This document shows positions 28,657 to 41,632 of a stretch of DNA of 48,888 bases, one piece after another. The stretch is from a bacterium (GTDB lineage: Bacteria; Actinomycetota; Coriobacteriia; Coriobacteriales; CADBOM01): contig JAILQZ010000087.1 of NCBI GenBank assembly GCA_024698685.1, positions 1-48,888 of the forward strand, written 5' to 3'. The first letter of the stretch is position 1, and every line of letters begins with the position of its first letter. The notes beneath the pieces are model-generated. The model was not told the origin of the DNA, made no database searches, and saw nothing but the letters and a program-made list of their open reading frames with translations. A program made the translations under genes and the position numbers.

Positions 28657-29124
28657 ATGGCATTCGAAGACGCAGACCTCTCCCTCCTCCCCGAAGGCTT
28701 CCACCAGAGGGTGGTCGACCTCAACAAGGAGGGCTACAACTGCGCTCAGATCATGTCGATCGCGACGCTGGAGCAGGAGGGCCTTGAGAACGTCGGCTTC
28801 GTGCGCGCGATGGGCGGGCTCAACGACAGCACCGGGCATTCCAAGATGACCTGCGGAGCGCTGACAAGCGCTTGCTGCATCATCTCCTACTTCGCCGGCA
28901 AAGGCGAGGATGACGAGCTTGAGGACGACGACTTCCAGGAGATGCTGGGGGAATTGGCCGATTGGTTCGCCGAGAGATACACGAACAAGTATGGCGGCTT
29001 CAGGTGCTGCGACATGCTCCACGACAACTACGACAACAGGATCTTCGTATGCCCCGAGGCAATCGGGAGCGCATACGCGAAGGCCATCGAGCTTCTCGAC
29101 GACAGGGGGCTTTGGCCTTGGTAG
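28657..29124 (+). CDS. C-GCAxxG-C-C family protein (possibly DVU_1555-like)
   Basis: YNCAQIMS, MGGLNDSTGHSKMTCGALTSACCIIS, FRCCDML, VCPEAIGSAY cysteine pattern. Start after aaggaaacc SD. Confidence 0.75.
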   Translation: MAFEDADLSLLPEGFHQRVVDLNKEGYNCAQIMSIATLEQEGLENVGFVRAMGGLNDSTGHSKMTCGALTSACCIISYFAGKGEDDELEDDDFQEMLGELADWFAERYTNKYGGFRCCDMLHDNYDNRIFVCPEAIGSAYAKAIELLDDRGLWPW

Positions 29125-30224
29125 GCGCGGTCATACCCGCCGCCGGCCTCTCCTCTCGCATGGGAGATTTCAAGCCGTTGATGGAGATCAACGGCTTCCC
29201 GATGATACGCATGACCGTGCAGTCCGCCATCGATGGTGGCGCGCGGTGCATCGTTGTGGTGACGGGGCGCGAGGCTCAAGGAGTGCGCGAGGCGCTCGCT
29301 GGGCTCGACGTGGCCTTCGCCCACAATGACAGCTATGCCACATCCGATATGATGCTCTCGGTTCAGCTCGGGCTCGCCGCGCTCATCGAGGCGGCGAAGG
29401 AACCTCTGGAGGGCTTCTTCCTGCTGCCAGGAGACATCCCCGCAATCTCACCTGCCACATTCGCGCTCATGAGCGGATACGCGATCGCCAACGACGTGGA
29501 CATGCTCAAGCCCGCTTATGGGGAGACCAACGTGCATCCTCCGTTCATCTCCGCGCGGCTCTTCGACGCGATCCTCGGCTACGAGGGCAGCCGCGGCCTC
29601 AAGGGCGCGCTCGCCGAAGCCGGTGCCGATATCGTACGCTTCCCCATCGACGATGAGGGCGCGTCGCTCGATGCCGACGAGCCCGCCGACTTCGAGCGCC
29701 TCGTAGAGTACGCGAAGGCCCGCAAGGGCGTTTCGGAGAGCGTCTGCAGGCAGCTGTTCGCGCTCGCCGACACCCCAAGCAACGTCATCGAGCACACTAT
29801 GGCGGTCTCAGGGCTCGCCAGGCGCATGGCCCGCAGCCTCAACGCAGTGGGCTACCATCTCGACGAGGAGCTCTGCGCTAGCGGAGGGGCGCTTCACGAC
29901 ATACTGCGCGTGAAGCCGAGGCACTCCAAGGAGGGAGCGGCCCTGCTACGCAAGCTGGGTTACCTCAAGCTCGCGGATATCGTCATAGCCCACGACGGAT
30001 TCTTCGGCCTCTACCCCAAGGATTTCGACGAGGCGACCATCGTCAACCTCGCCGACAAGTTCATGCAAAACGACCAGCTGGTCACCATCGGGAAGCGGTA
30101 CGAGAAGGCGACGAAAGCCTTCCCCGAAAACACCCCGATTGGCGCTAGAATAGCACTCGACGTGGAAATACTCGAAAGGCTCCAGCAGCGCTACGAGGAG
30201 TTGACGCATGACCGAATCGTCTAA
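29118..30224 (+). CDS. MobA/MocA-like NTP transferase fused to an HD domain (possibly DVU_1551-like)
   Basis: VGAVIPAAGLSSRMGDFKPLMEINGFPMI nucleotidyltransferase; HD domain VIEHTMAVSGLARRM..GALHDILRVKPRHSKEG. Likely TTG start overlapping the previous stop. Confidence 0.75.
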   Translation: MVGAVIPAAGLSSRMGDFKPLMEINGFPMIRMTVQSAIDGGARCIVVVTGREAQGVREALAGLDVAFAHNDSYATSDMMLSVQLGLAALIEAAKEPLEGFFLLPGDIPAISPATFALMSGYAIANDVDMLKPAYGETNVHPPFISARLFDAILGYEGSRGLKGALAEAGADIVRFPIDDEGASLDADEPADFERLVEYAKARKGVSESVCRQLFALADTPSNVIEHTMAVSGLARRMARSLNAVGYHLDEELCASGGALHDILRVKPRHSKEGAALLRKLGYLKLADIVIAHDGFFGLYPKDFDEATIVNLADKFMQNDQLVTIGKRYEKATKAFPENTPIGARIALDVEILERLQQRYEELTHDRIV

Positions 30225-31368
30225 CGACTTCGCCCCGATCTACCTGAACAACGCGGCGACCTCCTTCCCGAAGCCCGATTGCGTGGCCGAGGCGATGGCG
30301 CAGGCCGTCAGCTCGCTGCCAGGCGGCGACAACCGCGACTCGATGGAAAGGCGAAACGTCAACGACGAGCTGCGCATCGCACTTGCCGAGCTGCTGCACG
30401 CGCCCGACCACAGGCGCATCGTCCTCGGCTCGAATGCGACATGGGGTCTCAACGAAGCGATCTTCGGGCTGAAGCTGGTCGCTGGCGATTGCATAGTCGC
30501 CTCGATGGCCGAGCACAACTCGGTGATCCGCCCAGTCGAGGCGCTTGCCGCCAAGGGCATCGAGGTCGCATACGTGCCGGTTGATGCCGCAGGGCGCATC
30601 GACGCGAGCGCTTGGAAGGCCGCTATCGAAAAGCGCTCCCCCAAGCTCGCGGTTTGCACGCACGCTTCCAACGTCACCGGCGCGATCAACGATGTCGCAG
30701 GACTCGCGGCAGTCGCCAAGGCTCACGGCGCAATCACGCTAGTGGATGCCGCGCAAACTCTCGGGCTCGTCGAAATCGACGCGAGCGACCCGAACATCGA
30801 CATGATCGCCTTCACGGGCCACAAGTACCTCCTAGGCCCGCAGGGCACCGGCGGCCTCTACGTCAGCGAGGGCGTCGATCTCGAGCCGCACGCCATCGGA
30901 GGCACCGGCGTGAGGAGCGACCTCGCCAAGATGCCCGATGAATACCCGATGCACCTCGAGGCCGGCACCTCCAACGAACCCTCTAACGCAGGCCTTCTGG
31001 CTGCCATACGCTGGGCCAAGGGCAACCCCGTCGATCTCGGCGAACTGGCGGAGAAGCGCTCTAGGCTACGCGATGGGCTAACTGAAGCGGGCGCGAGGGT
31101 CATCGACCCTGGTGCGCCATCGACGCCCGTGGTCTCCTTCACAGTCGAGGGGCTTACCCCGGGCTATGTCGGTGAGCTCCTCTTCGACTGCTACGACATC
31201 ATCTGCAGGACGGGGCTGCATTGCGCGCCCAAGATCTTCGGCTGCCTCGGCGAAGGCCTCGAGAGCGGCACGGTTCGCATCAGCCTCTCGCGCTTCACGA
31301 CGGATGAAGAGATCGATGCGCTGATCGGTGCGATCGACGACATCATCTCATCCGAGACGGGCTTCTAG
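30208..31368 (+). CDS. aminotransferase class V-fold PLP enzyme (cysteine desulfurase-like)
   Basis: IYLNNAATSFPKP, THASNVTGAINDV, FTGHKYLLGPQGTGGLYV (PLP lysine), CRTGLHCAP (candidate catalytic Cys). Confidence 0.88.
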   Translation: MTESSNDFAPIYLNNAATSFPKPDCVAEAMAQAVSSLPGGDNRDSMERRNVNDELRIALAELLHAPDHRRIVLGSNATWGLNEAIFGLKLVAGDCIVASMAEHNSVIRPVEALAAKGIEVAYVPVDAAGRIDASAWKAAIEKRSPKLAVCTHASNVTGAINDVAGLAAVAKAHGAITLVDAAQTLGLVEIDASDPNIDMIAFTGHKYLLGPQGTGGLYVSEGVDLEPHAIGGTGVRSDLAKMPDEYPMHLEAGTSNEPSNAGLLAAIRWAKGNPVDLGELAEKRSRLRDGLTEAGARVIDPGAPSTPVVSFTVEGLTPGYVGELLFDCYDIICRTGLHCAPKIFGCLGEGLESGTVRISLSRFTTDEEIDALIGAIDDIISSETGF

Positions 31369-31377
31369 GGGCAAGCC

Positions 31378-31686
31378 ATGGAATTCACCTGCAAGAAGAT
31401 CGAGAACTGCTTCACCAACTCGGCGAACTTCCAGTACGCGCTCGAGGTGCGCGCCGAAAGCTTCATGGGCGCAATCGACGACTGGGAGAGCATCAGGGTC
31501 AACGAGAAGCTTCGCCGCCCCACCTTCATCGGCGCGTTCGCCGACGGAATCCAGGTGAAGGGCGTTCTCGCGAAGAACTCGATCCGCGTCGGCTATCCAG
31601 AGGATCGCTGGGAGGATTGCAAGGAGCGCTTCGAGGCGCGCCTATCGGCGATGGATGCCGCAAAGATATCGGAAGGCACCGAATAG
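31378..31686 (+). CDS. 102-aa protein of unknown function in the same operon
   Basis: ATG 9 bp after the previous stop, 13 bp before the next start; no family recognised. Confidence 0.6.
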   Translation: MEFTCKKIENCFTNSANFQYALEVRAESFMGAIDDWESIRVNEKLRRPTFIGAFADGIQVKGVLAKNSIRVGYPEDRWEDCKERFEARLSAMDAAKISEGTE

Positions 31687-31699
31687 AAAGGCGTTTGAA

Positions 31700-32677
31700 A
31701 TGGTTGCATTCCCCAAGAGCAAGGTTGACGAATATGCGAGCGCTTGCGAGGGGTGCACCTTCGAAACGCGCGCAGATCTCGAGGAGTTCCAGCTGAAGCG
31801 GCTCAACGAGCTGCTCGAGCGCATCGGCGGGCGCGGCCTCTACGCTGAATACCCAACGCATCTCAGCTCGCTCGCGGATATCGCGAATCTCCCATTCACA
31901 ACCGAAAGGGACATCATCGATCGCCCCAGCCAGCTCGGCATGGTCTCGCAATCGCAGTGCGTTCGCGTCATATCCGACGAGACCTCCGCGACCACCGGCA
32001 AGCCCAAGCGCATCTACTACACCCAGGCCGACAGGGACCGCACGACGCGCTTCTTCGAGATCGGCCTGCAGGAGCTCATCGAGCCTGGCGACTTCGTCAT
32101 GCTCGGCTTCCCCGAGTCGGGCGAACTCGGCCTCACCGACCTCATCGAGGAGGCATGCAGGCGCATCGGCGCGATGTGCTATGTGGCCGAGGATGAGGCC
32201 CGCTATGCGATCGACCAGATGTCGATGCTCTCTCCCAACGCATACATCGGGCACCCCTTCCACATGACGGCGCTGCTCGACGAGCTGGCGGCCCGCGACA
32301 CGGTGCCAACCTTCACGCGCGCGCTCATCAGCGGCGATTCCTGCAGCGCCGAGCTCTGCGAGGCCGTCGCAGCGGCAATCGGGAGCTACCCCTTCCTACA
32401 CTACGGTTCGCGCGAGATCGGCCTCGCCGGCGCGGTCTCCTGCTCCAGCCACAAGGGCATGCACATCAGGGAGAACGATCTGCTGGTAGAGATAGTCGAT
32501 GGGAACGGAAACCCGCTGCCAGATGGCGAGTGGGGCGAGATCGTCATAACCACGCTGGCGCAGGAAGCGATGCCGTTCGTGCGCTATAGGACGCAGGACC
32601 GAGGAAGGATCATTCCCCAGCCCTGCGAATGCTCCAGCGTTATGAGATTGCTCGATGACAAGATCGAGCGGATGTAG
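31700..32677 (+). CDS. AMP-dependent synthetase/ligase-like protein without the C-terminal subdomain (possibly DVU_1553-like)
   Basis: DETSATTGKPKRIYYT (SGTTGxPK-like), HYGSREIG, FVRYRTQDRGRI; ORF ends soon after that motif. Confidence 0.75.
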   Translation: MVAFPKSKVDEYASACEGCTFETRADLEEFQLKRLNELLERIGGRGLYAEYPTHLSSLADIANLPFTTERDIIDRPSQLGMVSQSQCVRVISDETSATTGKPKRIYYTQADRDRTTRFFEIGLQELIEPGDFVMLGFPESGELGLTDLIEEACRRIGAMCYVAEDEARYAIDQMSMLSPNAYIGHPFHMTALLDELAARDTVPTFTRALISGDSCSAELCEAVAAAIGSYPFLHYGSREIGLAGAVSCSSHKGMHIRENDLLVEIVDGNGNPLPDGEWGEIVITTLAQEAMPFVRYRTQDRGRIIPQPCECSSVMRLLDDKIERM

Positions 32678-32715
32678 CGCTCAGAGGCCATAAAACGCCC
32701 GCTAAGCCACGATAA

Positions 32716-33744
32716 TCACTTTAGCGAGATGATCTCCGCCATGATGCTGACCGCTATCTCAGCGGGCGTCTTGGCACCTATCTCCAAGCCGATCGGACTG
32801 TGCACCAGCGCGAGCTGCTCATCGGTCGCACCGCGATCGCGCAGGTTGTTGTAGACCGCAGAGCGCTTCGTCTTCGAGCCGATCATGCCGATGTAGTGCG
32901 CCGGCTTGTCGATCGCCCATTCGAGGACGTCGCGGTCGAATGCATGCCCGCGCGTGATGATCAGGATGTGCGACCTGCCATCGATGACGAGCTCGGGAAT
33001 ATGGAAGTAGTCATCGAGGACGACGATCTCGCAACCGGGGAAGTTCTCCTCGTTGGCGTACTCTGCGCGGTCGTCGAAGACCGTGACCTTGTAGCCGAGA
33101 TGCACCGCGAGGAACGCGACCTCCTTGGAGACGTGCCCGGCGCCGAAGAGGTAGATCACGCCGGCCGCCGAGATGGCATCGCTGAAGACGCTGACCCCGG
33201 GAACGTCGTCGCAGTGGATGCCCACGCGGATCGGGTTCTCGAGCAGCTCGCGCGAGATGACCCCGATCCCCGGGAAGCTACCGACAAGCCCCTCCCCCTC
33301 CACGAAGAGCGCCAGCGTGCACTTGGCGGCTTGCTCGTCGCGGGCATCGTAGATGGAGTAGAGGGTTGCTTCCTTGCCGTTCACCGTGGCATCGTGGGCC
33401 GCAGCGAACACCGACTTGGCATCTGCATCATCGGCTGAGACATAAGCGATCAGCACATCGCAATCCCCTCCGCATATCATCCCCTCGACGTCCTTCGACT
33501 TGTAGGACATGTCGAATGTGCGCATGGTGGAACGCTCGTTTACGAGCGCGTCGTCGCGCGCCATCTTGATGACGGAGTACTCCGAACCGCCGCCGCCGAT
33601 CGTTCCGACGATGCGGTCGGGCAAGACCAGCATCTTCGAACCCGAGCTGCGCGGGGTCGATCCGGCGGAGCGCACTATGGTCGCATATGCGAAGCTCTCG
33701 CCCGCATCCATGCAGGCGACGGCTTTGCTGAAGATGGTTTCCAT
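32716..33744 (-). CDS. XdhC/CoxI family protein (molybdenum hydroxylase maturation)
   Basis: TIVRSAGSTPRSSGSKMLV, GTIGGGGSE, MICGGDCDVLI, LFGAGHVSKEVAFLA, ITRGHAFDRDVLEWAI, YIGMIGSKTKR. Confidence 0.88.
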   Translation of the reverse strand: METIFSKAVACMDAGESFAYATIVRSAGSTPRSSGSKMLVLPDRIVGTIGGGGSEYSVIKMARDDALVNERSTMRTFDMSYKSKDVEGMICGGDCDVLIAYVSADDADAKSVFAAAHDATVNGKEATLYSIYDARDEQAAKCTLALFVEGEGLVGSFPGIGVISRELLENPIRVGIHCDDVPGVSVFSDAISAAGVIYLFGAGHVSKEVAFLAVHLGYKVTVFDDRAEYANEENFPGCEIVVLDDYFHIPELVIDGRSHILIITRGHAFDRDVLEWAIDKPAHYIGMIGSKTKRSAVYNNLRDRGATDEQLALVHSPIGLEIGAKTPAEIAVSIMAEIISLK

Positions 33745-35657: not shown

Positions 35658-36569
35658 ATGGATTCGATAGCGCTTCTCATAGCCATCACCTGCGTGACGG
35701 GAATCGGCAGCGGCGTCATCGGCGCCTCTGTCGCCTCCGCGTTCAATCTCGACTCCAATCGCCTCATGAGCATGGTTATCAGCTTCGCAGCCGGACTCAT
35801 GCTCGCCATCATCTGCTTCGATTTCATACCCGATGCTCTGGAGGCCGGCGAGGGCGCTGGCCACGCGCTGCTGATCGTCGGAACGATTGCGCTGGGCGTC
35901 ATCGTGGTCGCCGCGCTCAACAAGATCATGGACTCGCGCATGCAGAAGAAGATCCACTGCTGCACCATCGACGACCCCAATCTCGCGCAGGTCATCGACG
36001 AGCGCACCCGCAGCGAGCATCTCAAGCTGCACGAGCAGGCAGAGAGCCATTCGGCGCATGCCGATGGCGGCTTGCATGACGGACACGGCATGGTCTACGA
36101 GGGCCAGAGCAGGTCTACGCTCCTGCTCGCCGGATGGGTCATGGCCGTGGCGATCGCGCTGCACAACCTGCCCGCGGGAATGAGCATCGGCGCCTCCTTC
36201 TCCATCCCCAGCATGGCCATGGTAAAGTCCGGCATCGTCATCGCGGTTCTCATCGGCATCCACAGCATCCCCGAGGCGATGGCTATGGCGGTGCCCTTCC
36301 GCTACGCGGGACTCTCCAGGGCAAAGACGATCGCGATCGCTGCGCTTGTCGGCGCGATGGTCGTCGTCGGCGCGGTCATCGGGTTCGTGCTCGGCGAGAT
36401 CGGCGAAACCTGGTTCGCGCTGTGCCTCGCATTCGCCAGCGGCTCGATGCTCTACGTCCTCTTCGGCGAGATGCTCCCGGAGGCGATTCTGCTATTCCAC
36501 TCCAAGAAGCCCGCACTTGCCGTCATTGGCGGTATACTCGTTGGGTTGATCCTGATAGTGATTCTCTGA
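35658..36569 (+). CDS. ZIP family metal transporter
   Basis: Polytopic; WVMAVAIALHNLPAGMSIGASF and VLIGIHSIPEAMAMAVPFRYAG motifs; His-bearing loop. Confidence 0.88.
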   Translation: MDSIALLIAITCVTGIGSGVIGASVASAFNLDSNRLMSMVISFAAGLMLAIICFDFIPDALEAGEGAGHALLIVGTIALGVIVVAALNKIMDSRMQKKIHCCTIDDPNLAQVIDERTRSEHLKLHEQAESHSAHADGGLHDGHGMVYEGQSRSTLLLAGWVMAVAIALHNLPAGMSIGASFSIPSMAMVKSGIVIAVLIGIHSIPEAMAMAVPFRYAGLSRAKTIAIAALVGAMVVVGAVIGFVLGEIGETWFALCLAFASGSMLYVLFGEMLPEAILLFHSKKPALAVIGGILVGLILIVIL

Positions 36570-36583
36570 CGCTAGGAGCTCCC

Positions 36584-37420
36584 ATGGATTCCGAACTGCT
36601 CTCAGGCCTAGGCATTCCCACCTCCGGCGCTGGCGTGAAAAGCGGCGTGCAGCTCACCCAGCCGATTATCGTCGATGAGATCGGCGAAGCCGAAGCGCAG
36701 CGCATATCCTCGCTGGTCAAGGAGCAGATCAGGGCCGCATTCGAAGCCCATGGCGAGGTTGTCGTGGCCTTTTCCGGCGGCGTGGATTCGACATTGCTCG
36801 CCAAGCTCGCCCGAGAGGAGCTCTCCGATGCCAAGGAGAATCTGCATGTGGTGCTCGCAGTCTCTCCCCTTCTCAGCATGCGCGGTCTGAACGAGGCTTC
36901 GAACCTCTCGAGACAGTTCGAGCTAGGCATGAAGATCGTCAGCCATCCCGGCTGGAAGCTGCCCGAGGTGCGCGCCAACGAGAAGCTGCGCTGTTACCAC
37001 TGCAAGAACGCCCTATTCGAAGCTATAGAGGAGAAGTACCCCGGAGCGGTCATCCTCGAAGGTTCGAACGTCGACGACATCAACGATGACAGGCCGGGCT
37101 TCGCGGCTGTCCAGGGGCACGGGGTCCTCTCCCCCTTCCTGCAGGCTGGCATCGGCAAGCTGCAGATCCGTCAGCTTTCCCTGCATCTCGGACTTCCGAA
37201 CGCGCTCTACGCCTCCGATTCCTGCATGGCCACGCGCTTCGAGTTCGGTCATTCCCTGAAGACGCAGGAGATGAACGACATCGAAACCAAGGAGAACAAG
37301 CTGCGTGAGAGCGTTCTCAAGCGCCGCGAGAAGGAGAACTACGTCAACGCGGTCGAGCCCAAGGTCAGAATCCGCGTGAAGAGGGGCAGCGAGGTCACGG
37401 AGGTTACCGAGTCTCTGTGA
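36584..37420 (+). CDS. larE: LarE-like ATP-dependent sulfur transferase
   Basis: VVVAFSGGVDSTLLAKLA PP-loop, KLRCYHCKNALF, EGSNVDDINDDRPG, SDSCMATRF. Confidence 0.9.
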   Translation: MDSELLSGLGIPTSGAGVKSGVQLTQPIIVDEIGEAEAQRISSLVKEQIRAAFEAHGEVVVAFSGGVDSTLLAKLAREELSDAKENLHVVLAVSPLLSMRGLNEASNLSRQFELGMKIVSHPGWKLPEVRANEKLRCYHCKNALFEAIEEKYPGAVILEGSNVDDINDDRPGFAAVQGHGVLSPFLQAGIGKLQIRQLSLHLGLPNALYASDSCMATRFEFGHSLKTQEMNDIETKENKLRESVLKRREKENYVNAVEPKVRIRVKRGSEVTEVTESL

Positions 37421-39192: not shown

Positions 39193-40347
39193 CTACGGGC
39201 TGGAATCTGACAGCTGGATCTCGCGACCGACAGGTGGCGTTTCCATTGGATTGGGAGAGCGCTCAGCCACTGCCTGGCTGGAATTCGCGAGGAGAGCCGC
39301 TGCCAGCAGCGCCGTGGAGACGGTTGCAGCGATCGCGGCCACTCTGGGCCTGCGGCGCCTATGGCGGATTGCTGAGCGTGAATTTCCGGATCTGCCCTCT
39401 GCAAGGTCGCGCACCAGATCGGAGGCGGCTCGCGCGAAAGCCGCGGGAGTTTGGAAGCGCTCGAAGGGCTCGGGGGCGCATGCCCGCTGTATCAGCGCAT
39501 CGAGAGCATCCAGCTCGAAGGGCGCCAGCGCAGTGCGCACAGTTGCGGATTCGGAGAGGCTCGGCAGCTCGGAGGAGAGCCTGATGGGATTCTTCCCCTC
39601 GAGCTTCCAAGGGCTAGCGCCGGTGATCATCTCGTAGAGGACGACGCCGAGCGAGTAGATGTCGGAGCGGATGTCTACCTTGCTGCAATCGGCTAGCTGC
39701 TCTGGGGACATATAGCGCAGGGTACCCGCAATCTTTGTTGCGAAATCCTCGGATACGACCATGCGCGTTTTGGCCACCCCAAGATCGGAGAGCTTGGGCA
39801 CCCCGTCGGCATCGAAGAGGATGTTCGCCGGCTTGATGTCGCGATGCGCGACGATCCTGCCATCTAGATGCAGGTATGCAAGCGCACGGGCGATCTGCTC
39901 GGCTATCCCGAGCGCACGGGCGGGCTCGATGGTCAGCTGCTCGCGCATAAGGTCGAGAAGCGAGCCCCCGCAGAGGTATTCGAGGACGACGAAGGGGGCT
40001 CCGCTGCACCCTGGCATCGTGCCGCAACCTATGCCGCAGACGATATTGGGGTGGCTGAGCCTGCAGACGAGCTGGGCTTCCCTGCAGAAGCGCTCCCTGA
40101 TCGACGACCTCGCACCCTCGAGCCGCGCGACCTTGACCGCCACGCGCGCGCCGTCCTCGAGCTCGCCACTGTAGACATCGGCCATCGCCCCGCGCCCGAC
40201 ACGCTCGCGCATGACAACCTTGCGAGGCTCTCCTCGAGTTGTGGCGAAGGTCAGCTCCGTGGCACTCGGAACTAGCCGCGCTCGGCGCGATCCATCTCCT
40301 TCCTCCACCGACGGCAAGCTATTGATTTTCGAATCGATCTGATTCAT
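39193..40347 (-). CDS. serine/threonine protein kinase with C-terminal TM segment
   Basis: RVGRGAMADVYSGE, VAVKVAR, VAHRDIKPANILFD, LSDLGVAKT, GTLRYMSPEQL, SDIYSLGVVLYEMITG; VAAIAATVSTALLAAALLA TM. Confidence 0.9.
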   Translation of the reverse strand: MNQIDSKINSLPSVEEGDGSRRARLVPSATELTFATTRGEPRKVVMRERVGRGAMADVYSGELEDGARVAVKVARLEGARSSIRERFCREAQLVCRLSHPNIVCGIGCGTMPGCSGAPFVVLEYLCGGSLLDLMREQLTIEPARALGIAEQIARALAYLHLDGRIVAHRDIKPANILFDADGVPKLSDLGVAKTRMVVSEDFATKIAGTLRYMSPEQLADCSKVDIRSDIYSLGVVLYEMITGASPWKLEGKNPIRLSSELPSLSESATVRTALAPFELDALDALIQRACAPEPFERFQTPAAFARAASDLVRDLAEGRSGNSRSAIRHRRRRPRVAAIAATVSTALLAAALLANSSQAVAERSPNPMETPPVGREIQLSDSSP

Positions 40348-40393
40348 ACTGCAGCCCCCAAACCCGCTCTCCCCAACTCGGAGGGAGTGACAA

Positions 40394-41632
40394 ATGAAGC
40401 GTTCTACCTGCAGATTCACAGCAATCGTCATCATCTCGTTGCTGTTAGCTGGGCTAATTGTAGGGTGCGATTCCAAACAGCAGCCAAGCGGCAGCCAAGC
40501 GGATTCCGATCAAGATCGAAACCAATCCCAAACGATTTCTGAATCGTCCCCTAATCCACTCGAAACCCTGATATCGGAGACGATTGAAGACAAAGGGCTG
40601 TCCAGACTGACCGTAAGCGAATCGCAGGGATTCGCGCTTTGGGTGAAGGGGAAGCTCTCCGTCAGCACGGGCAGTTCTGAGGATGAAGATGACGAGCTGC
40701 TGCTCGAGGTCGATCCGGGCAGATACCTGACAAGGATCTGGACCGCGCTCGAGATCGATGGCCCGCTGATCGCAACCGGGGAGGTGAAGGCGAGCGGGCT
40801 GCGTGCGGTTGGAAAGATCGGCGCGGCGGTGATCGAGGCCCGCAGCGCCTCCTTCGAGAGCGCAGAGATCGGCACTTTGGCAGCCGTCAGCGCAGAAGTG
40901 GAGAAGCTCGCGACCTCGGCCGCGCAGATCGCGAAGCTCGCCTCCGAGCAGCTCATCGTATCGGGCGATGCAAGCATGGGCAACCTAAGCGTCAACGAGG
41001 CGATCACCGCTCCCGCCGTGCACGCGCAGTCGATCACCGCCCAAACGCTCGAAGCCAGCAAGATCGCGGCAGACAGCGCTTCGATCGACCAGCTCTCCGC
41101 GATGCAGGGCAGGCTCGAAAGCCTCTCCGCCAGCATCATCGAGGTGAACGCGATCGAAGCTACCACCATCTCGGCTGCGAAGTCGATTTCGAGCGCAGCG
41201 ATCTCCTGCACATCCCTCAACGCAACCGACATCGCGGCGGAATCGGTCGGCGCTTCGAGCCTCAAGGCGAATTCCATCAGCGCCACATCGCTCAATGCCC
41301 GAAGCATTGCAGGAGCGCTGGGCTCCCTGAGACTGCCGAGCGATTGTTGCGGCTCCGCCACCTTCCCAGCCATCGACTCCAGCGGCGAAGGCCTTGATGC
41401 AACCGTCGTCATCGAAGTGAATCCCAAGACGAGCGGAATCGTGGCAACCCAATGCACATCGATCTCCCCATACCTATGCATGTACGAGGTGGCGCAGATC
41501 GGAGATGGCCGATGGGAGATCTCGAGAAGGTTCGAATCGGCAGCAATGGAAGCACTGGACAACGGTTCCTTCCCGGGAATCCCAGAAACCGCAATCCACT
41601 GGATCGCCTTCGTCGAGGAAGACCCTGGTTGA
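40394..41632 (+). CDS. lipoprotein with Ala/Ser-rich short-period repeats (probable beta-solenoid)
   Basis: Lipobox LLLAGLIVGC; long run of ITAQTLEASKIAADSASIDQLSA..SSLKANSISATSLNARSIAG-type repeats. Confidence 0.7.
   Translation: MKRSTCRFTAIVIISLLLAGLIVGCDSKQQPSGSQADSDQDRNQSQTISESSPNPLETLISETIEDKGLSRLTVSESQGFALWVKGKLSVSTGSSEDEDDELLLEVDPGRYLTRIWTALEIDGPLIATGEVKASGLRAVGKIGAAVIEARSASFESAEIGTLAAVSAEVEKLATSAAQIAKLASEQLIVSGDASMGNLSVNEAITAPAVHAQSITAQTLEASKIAADSASIDQLSAMQGRLESLSASIIEVNAIEATTISAAKSISSAAISCTSLNATDIAAESVGASSLKANSISATSLNARSIAGALGSLRLPSDCCGSATFPAIDSSGEGLDATVVIEVNPKTSGIVATQCTSISPYLCMYEVAQIGDGRWEISRRFESAAMEALDNGSFPGIPETAIHWIAFVEEDPG

Follow-up and report, generated by a model that had tools for sequence, protein, structure and literature searches.

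DVU_1551 to DVU_1559 of Desulfovibrio make up the neighbourhood of the Mop-type aldehyde oxidoreductase (AOR). Enzymes of this type are among the structurally best-studied molybdenum enzymes, and the operon described here bears on how their cofactor is finished and whether it ever needs a sulfur ligand. The AOR of D. gigas binds the cytosine dinucleotide form of the cofactor (PMC3877041), and in Rhodobacter capsulatus the cofactor receives its sulfur from a cysteine desulfurase while bound to XdhC (PMC2997495). We analysed a stretch of 48,888 nucleotides (the window; contig JAILQZ010000087.1 of the draft assembly GCA_024698685.1, labelled C90 below) from a gut-type actinobacterium of the Coriobacteriales, in which a compact five-gene operon faces a convergent xdhC-type gene. 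The operon and xdhC together are probably the cofactor-maturation half of a Mop-type AOR system, with a proposed sulfur relay as part of the mechanism. The case for AOR maturation is strong. Gene content, homologies, co-occurrence and clustering were observed directly; every catalytic step, the sulfur relay most of all, is inferred.

The layout described in an earlier, sequence-only reading of this DNA is present in every part: five plus-strand open reading frames (ORFs) at 28657-32677, the first three overlapping by 7 and 17 bp and the last three spaced by 9 and 13 bp, and the xdhC-type gene, whose stop lies 38 bp from the last operon stop. The most plausible start of the gene for the nucleotidyltransferase/HD fusion is the TTG at 29118, which overlaps by 7 bp the gene of the C-GCAxxG-C-C protein (CGA). 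The aminotransferase ORF overlaps the fusion by 17 bp and is followed, 9 bp downstream, by the ORF of a 102-aa protein, and the AMP ligase is best started at the ATG at 31700, behind a Shine-Dalgarno-like AGAAAGG and a 13-bp gap (the longest ORF begins at 31655). The gene order is identical in G013, a second genome of this genus, with protein identities of 88-93%. Because the order is kept there and clusters of homologues recur in dozens of further genomes, the arrangement is beyond chance, and the five-gene operon with its convergent xdhC is confirmed as real.

Hidden Markov model searches against NCBIfam and Pfam with curated cut-offs matched four of the five operon products and XdhC to NCBIfam families, mostly ones built around Desulfovibrio DVU_1551-1559, in agreement with the DVU_1551, DVU_1553 and DVU_1555 family names that had earlier been proposed (NF045665, NF045666 and NF045669). 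CGA scored 135.5 bits with NF045669 (cut-off 103) and 70.6 bits with PF09719 (cut-off 27). The nucleotidyltransferase/HD protein matched NF045665 over its full length (300.2 bits, cut-off 315) and TIGR03310 MocA (89.8 bits), exceeded the cut-offs of PF12804 and PF01966, and carries the motif AAGLSSRMG..KPL. The AMP ligase reached the last model position of NF045666 (291.9 bits, cut-off 300), and XdhC matched NF045664, titled 'XdhC family aldehyde oxidoreductase maturation factor' (325.6 bits, cut-off 350), as well as PF13478 and PF02625 above their cut-offs. The nearest families of the operon products and XdhC thus all come from the AOR set, except that of the aminotransferase; the 102-aa protein has none. 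A literature search found no paper naming DVU_1551, DVU_1553 or DVU_1555 and no experiment on these genes.

Searching the organism's own genome revealed exactly two molybdenum-binding hydroxylase domain matches, both on contig C50 and both above the cut-off of 1100 for the 'molybdopterin-dependent aldehyde oxidoreductase' NF045668 (1133 and 1140 bits), and in a PDB search with one of the two the Desulfovibrio AORs 1SIJ/1VLB and 1DGJ came top by far. This bears out the earlier expectation that the operon's client is a molybdenum hydroxylase whose gene lies outside the window, and not its qualifier that the hydroxylase might be selenium-dependent: with TIGR03311, the model of selenium-dependent xanthine dehydrogenase, both proteins scored only 384-390 bits against a cut-off of 830. 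The same scores make it quite improbable that the operon matures a selenium-dependent hydroxylase, with the class V aminotransferase acting as an EF2568-like selenocysteine lyase. That idea draws on TIGR01977, which is the EF2568 family, called probable selenocysteine lyase and tied to SelD and such hydroxylases (PMC2276186), and on an additional match to NF040779 SclA. The aminotransferase nevertheless stays below the cut-off of TIGR01977 (330.4 bits, cut-off 377) and scores 239.6 bits with NF040779 (cut-off 525), and the scanned window ORFs gave no selD or YqeB-type match, no genome-wide search for selD or YqeB having been made.

Partner genes of the AOR set are scattered over the same genome. 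On the minus strand of C50 the second AOR gene is followed by a gene for the dicluster oxidoreductase NF045663 (662.5 bits, cut-off 530), which is adjoined by one for the DVU_1557 redox protein (69.3 bits, cut-off 60), and contig C77 encodes a TrsS-like radical SAM protein scoring 405.9 bits with TrsS (cut-off 490) and 251.5 bits with Tes, comparable to the 396 bits of the cluster-borne TrsS of genome G073. TrsS itself, as cited in a review, reportedly goes back to Haft and Tolstoy 2025 (mSystems). The suspicion that the operon is a minimal version, voiced when neither redox partners nor a methyltransferase had been seen in the window, was therefore mostly wrong; it stands for the DVU_1556 methyltransferase, which was not found in this 94% complete genome (best score 63.1 bits, cut-off 155). 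The AOR system is nearly complete but split over at least three contigs, with only that methyltransferase not found. Two further observations concern contigs of this genome. The first AOR gene (L003, C50 5622-8902) is convergent with genes for an acyl-CoA synthetase, a cupin/XRE-type regulator and a 2-ketoacid oxidoreductase-like subunit, neighbours that hint at aldehyde or 2-ketoacid catabolism as its context. On contig C21, a second TrsS/Tes-like radical SAM gene (L144, 6781-8100; 364 bits) lies shortly behind an apparent DMSO-reductase-type molybdoenzyme gene with NrfD-like and Fe-S genes.

The AMP-ligase family and Mop-type AOR were found almost only together across about 690 genomes, sampled as three taxonomic sets of 247, 151 and 295. 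In the class around a Mailhella (Desulfovibrionaceae) genome (n = 247), 163 genomes carry both, 4 only the ligase, 9 only AOR and 71 neither (Fisher p about 3e-46), and in the window's order (n = 151) AOR occurs in 8 genomes, a ligase of at least 280 bits in 8 and both in 7 (p about 3e-9 with the window's own genome excluded); these p-values are inflated, the genomes being related, yet the pattern recurs in unrelated groups. The order around an Oscillospiraceae genome (n = 295) has the two genes in 2 and 3 genomes, 2 of them shared and one of these the centre itself. A hydroxylase domain is carried by 73 of the 151 genomes of the window's order, and the other hydroxylases are not accompanied by the ligase. 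Across genomes the ligase tracks AOR, which is the opposite of a broad spread through genomes with no molybdenum hydroxylase.

Neighbourhoods in other genomes tell the same. Species genomes were scanned with the ligase alignment, and the best 80 ligase loci, spanning Bacillota, Desulfovibrionales, Acidobacteriota, Bacteroidales, Chloroflexi and others, were examined; 68 of them have at least one of TrsS (59), CGA (57) and AOR (49) within 10 kb, CGA being present in most. The archetype, as in Mailhella (L098), comprises AOR, dicluster oxidoreductase, DVU_1557 protein, methyltransferase, CGA, TrsS, ligase, XdhC and nucleotidyltransferase. A MoeA-like (molybdopterin-binding) protein is encoded directly upstream of AOR in that locus (466-1608) and is possibly a further member of the system. 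AOR was searched for in 33 genomes (30 with ligase loci lacking a usable flanking AOR, and three anchors) and was found above the cut-off in 16; most of the negative ones fall in an isolated branch of the ligase tree. We rejected as system members the ligases of this kind from Bacteroides, Methanoregulaceae, Myxococcales and others (L117, L120, L122-L126, L128), which form a separate, partnerless branch. Clustered and scattered forms of the system both occur within one family: in G003, from the same family as the window's genome, AOR, dicluster oxidoreductase, methyltransferase, XdhC and the start of TrsS are contiguous (L150, G003:C56, 1-7916). That genome has AOR and no strong ligase match, and was rejected as a firm exception since the contig stops within the cluster's TrsS gene. 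A different setting was seen at L045 (G008:C92, 3415-6246), where genes for an ArsM-like methyltransferase and a LuxR-type regulator come after a DVU_1553-like ligase gene (282 bits) and a double-cubane reductase gene is close by. No molybdenum hydroxylase match was obtained in that genome, and the ligase family may serve another system there.

The window's ligase keeps the core motifs of the ATP site (TTGKPK, the catalytic Glu and RYRT.D; K105, E241 and D302 are invariant in the alignment) and ends at the hinge, where most relatives extend some 70-110 residues further. For the 77 relatives whose 3' ends are complete, the median surplus is 90 residues, and a subset is equally short. On a tree built from 87 cores, four changes are needed to account for the short form, at least two of them forced by well-supported branches, and the window's genus falls, with support, among Bacillota ligases that are otherwise full-length, apart from the members of its own order. 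This placement suggests that the ligase was gained horizontally and lost its lid independently. The C-terminal lid of ANL enzymes bears the adenylation lysine and is needed by CoA ligases, so an ordinary acyl-CoA ligase function is unlikely for the lid-less forms. Acyl-CoA or aromatic-acid metabolism built on a true PaaK-type CoA ligase, with only an incidental likeness to the AOR set, is accordingly strongly disfavoured, the least probable of the alternatives considered: the PaaK-like fold family and the G008 paralogue with its unusual neighbours speak for it, and against them stand the near-perfect co-occurrence with AOR, the clustering with XdhC, nucleotidyltransferase and AOR, and a lid lost about four times.

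The class V aminotransferase, whose nearest family lies outside the AOR set, has the features of a cysteine desulfurase, with a putative PLP-binding Lys206 and an active-site Cys339 in RTGLHCAP (motif RxGxHCAP), both invariant in seven orthologues, and its best PDB matches are cysteine desulfurases, closest to the SufS/CsdA type. SufS/CsdA-type desulfurases as a class deliver their persulfide to a partner protein's cysteine. The 102-aa gene stands directly behind a desulfurase gene of the same subfamily in seven of seven loci (the window, G013, L053, L062, L063, G101 and G039), and no such gene follows the more distant aminotransferases L068 and L100. All seven sequences have K-x3-C-F close to the N-terminus (KKxENCF in six of them), RRPxF and G-x3-KG, and Cys11 is their sole invariant cysteine. 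That one cysteine, with the constant position behind the desulfurase, suggests that the 102-aa protein is the desulfurase's partner in a dedicated sulfur relay. Its AlphaFold model has a pLDDT of 78.7; TBP-like and viral fold similarities of the model (TM about 0.3-0.5) were dismissed as noise, and no likeness in sequence or fold to SufE, SufU, TusA and similar sulfur acceptors was found.

In the mechanism we propose, the DVU_1551 protein would join CMP to Mo-molybdopterin and so form the cytosine-dinucleotide cofactor bound by AOR; such a MocA-like enzyme fits the operon because the D. gigas AOR uses this form. XdhC would hold the product while the desulfurase took sulfur from cysteine and passed it as a persulfide to the invariant cysteine of the 102-aa protein and on to the XdhC-bound cofactor, in line with the R. 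capsulatus precedent, and would then insert the finished cofactor into apo-AOR. CGA, the lid-less ANL core and TrsS would carry out further modification of cofactor or enzyme. For the ANL core a nucleotide-dependent or scaffolding role is the most likely one, and not that of a normal acyl-CoA ligase. AOR, the dicluster oxidoreductase, the DVU_1557 protein and the TrsS-like protein would form the other half of the system, elsewhere in the genome.

Several observations weigh against this reading, in addition to the relatedness of the genomes compared. Four of the family scores lie 3-12% below the curated cut-offs, yet are full-length best matches, and in the draft genome the operon (C90) is not physically linked to the AOR genes (C50). 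The 102-aa protein has no Pfam or NCBIfam match and matches PDB sequences only at E >1, and Foldseek with its model gave no match at E <0.25. The AOR of D. gigas is reported to be active with an oxo and no sulfido ligand (PMC3877041), and most clusters, those typical of Desulfovibrio among them, lack a desulfurase gene, so it is not evident that the AOR family requires sulfuration. Comparison of the AORs of desulfurase-carrying loci with the rest (8 vs 40 sequences) gave no separating residue that met the threshold. The desulfurase pair may mark organisms that sulfurate the cofactor, or it may serve another acceptor.

Such an acceptor could be the Fe-S clusters of AOR, the DVU_1557 protein, the radical SAM protein or CGA, with the operon still maturing AOR. 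AOR holds two 2Fe-2S clusters and several Fe-S motifs occur in the dicluster protein, and a sulfur target other than molybdenum would agree both with the dispensable sulfido ligand of the D. gigas enzyme (PMC3877041) and with two AOR groups that no signature residue divides. A desulfurase dedicated to the Fe-S clusters of one enzyme would, however, be unusual, and the precedent for XdhC with a desulfurase is molybdenum sulfuration (PMC2997495); we consider this alternative unlikely, and the sulfur relay to the XdhC-bound cofactor is preferred. A bolder form of the preferred reading, that the relay gives a subset of AORs a sulfido ligand absent in the Desulfovibrio enzyme and that lid-less DVU_1553 proteins in addition catalyse or scaffold a new molybdenum-cofactor modification unshared by other xanthine-oxidase-family enzymes, is put forward very tentatively, as rather doubtful in its combined form.

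Table 1. Genes of the operon and the convergent xdhC-type gene, with positions in the window.
Product	Position	Strand	Basis
C-GCAxxG-C-C protein (CGA), DVU_1555-family, putative redox/thiol protein, 155 aa	28657..29124	+	NF045669, PF09719
DVU_1551-family nucleotidyltransferase, MocA-like, fused to HD domain; proposed CTP:molybdopterin cytidylyltransferase	29118..30224	+	NF045665, TIGR03310, PF12804, PF01966
Class V aminotransferase, probable type II (SufS/CsdA-like) cysteine desulfurase	30208..31368	+	TIGR01977, best PDB matches, Lys206/Cys339
102-aa orphan; proposed sulfur acceptor/carrier	31378..31686	+	No family match; invariant Cys11; directly behind desulfurase
DVU_1553-family 'AMP-dependent CoA ligase', PaaK-like ANL core without C-terminal lid	31700..32677	+	NF045666, tail comparison, tree
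XdhC family AOR maturation factor, XdhC_CoxI and Rossmann domains, convergent	32716..33744	-	NF045664, PF13478, PF02625

Elsewhere in the window, a LarE-type ATP-dependent sacrificial sulfur transferase is encoded at 36590-37417 on the plus strand (TIGR00268, 177 bits, cut-off 150), just downstream of a ZupT-like metal transporter (35658-36569), and a PknB-related Ser/Thr kinase at 39193-40476 on the minus strand (NF033483, 199 bits, cut-off 450).

The core idea of AOR maturation is not new, being consistent with how NCBIfam already curates these families; novelty lies in the desulfurase/102-aa pair, in the ligase without a lid and in a quantified tie to a single enzyme type. Clustering links the otherwise unexplained DVU_1551, DVU_1553, DVU_1555, DVU_1557 and TrsS families to that enzyme, as does co-occurrence for the ligase, and with the new 102-aa family the sulfur question can be tested on organisms that have it and organisms that lack it. 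With the system of selenium-dependent molybdenum hydroxylases (Haft and Self 2008) the locus has a TIGR01977-like aminotransferase and MocA-like and XdhC-like proteins in common, but here the enzyme is AOR, and YqeB, YqeC and SelD are absent from the part of the window scanned. XdhC-NifS4 of Rhodobacter capsulatus and PucA (XdhC)-PucB (MocA) of B. subtilis likewise combine an XdhC-type chaperone with a desulfurase or cytidylyltransferase for a xanthine-oxidase-family enzyme, and are not described with CGA, an ANL core, TrsS or a 102-aa protein. The DVU_1551-DVU_1559 neighbourhood (NF045645, NF045646, NF045663-NF045669) shares CGA, the nucleotidyltransferase/HD fusion, the AMP-ligase core and the XdhC-type factor with the window, and AOR, the dicluster oxidoreductase, the DVU_1557 protein and the TrsS-like protein with the rest of the genome. 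Compared with it, the present system is spread over at least three contigs, lacks a detected methyltransferase, has the extra desulfurase and 102-aa protein, and carries the lid-less ligase, a form seen in some Desulfovibrionaceae too. The desulfurase and 102-aa genes also occur in AOR clusters of Lachnospiraceae, Veillonellaceae and further members of the window's order (L053, L062, L063, L040 and L041), where, unlike in the window, they mostly adjoin AOR or TrsS, the ligase is full-length and the nucleotidyltransferase has another position; as in the window, the desulfurase gene is directly followed by a member of the 102-aa family, in L063 in the order CGA, desulfurase, orphan, ligase.

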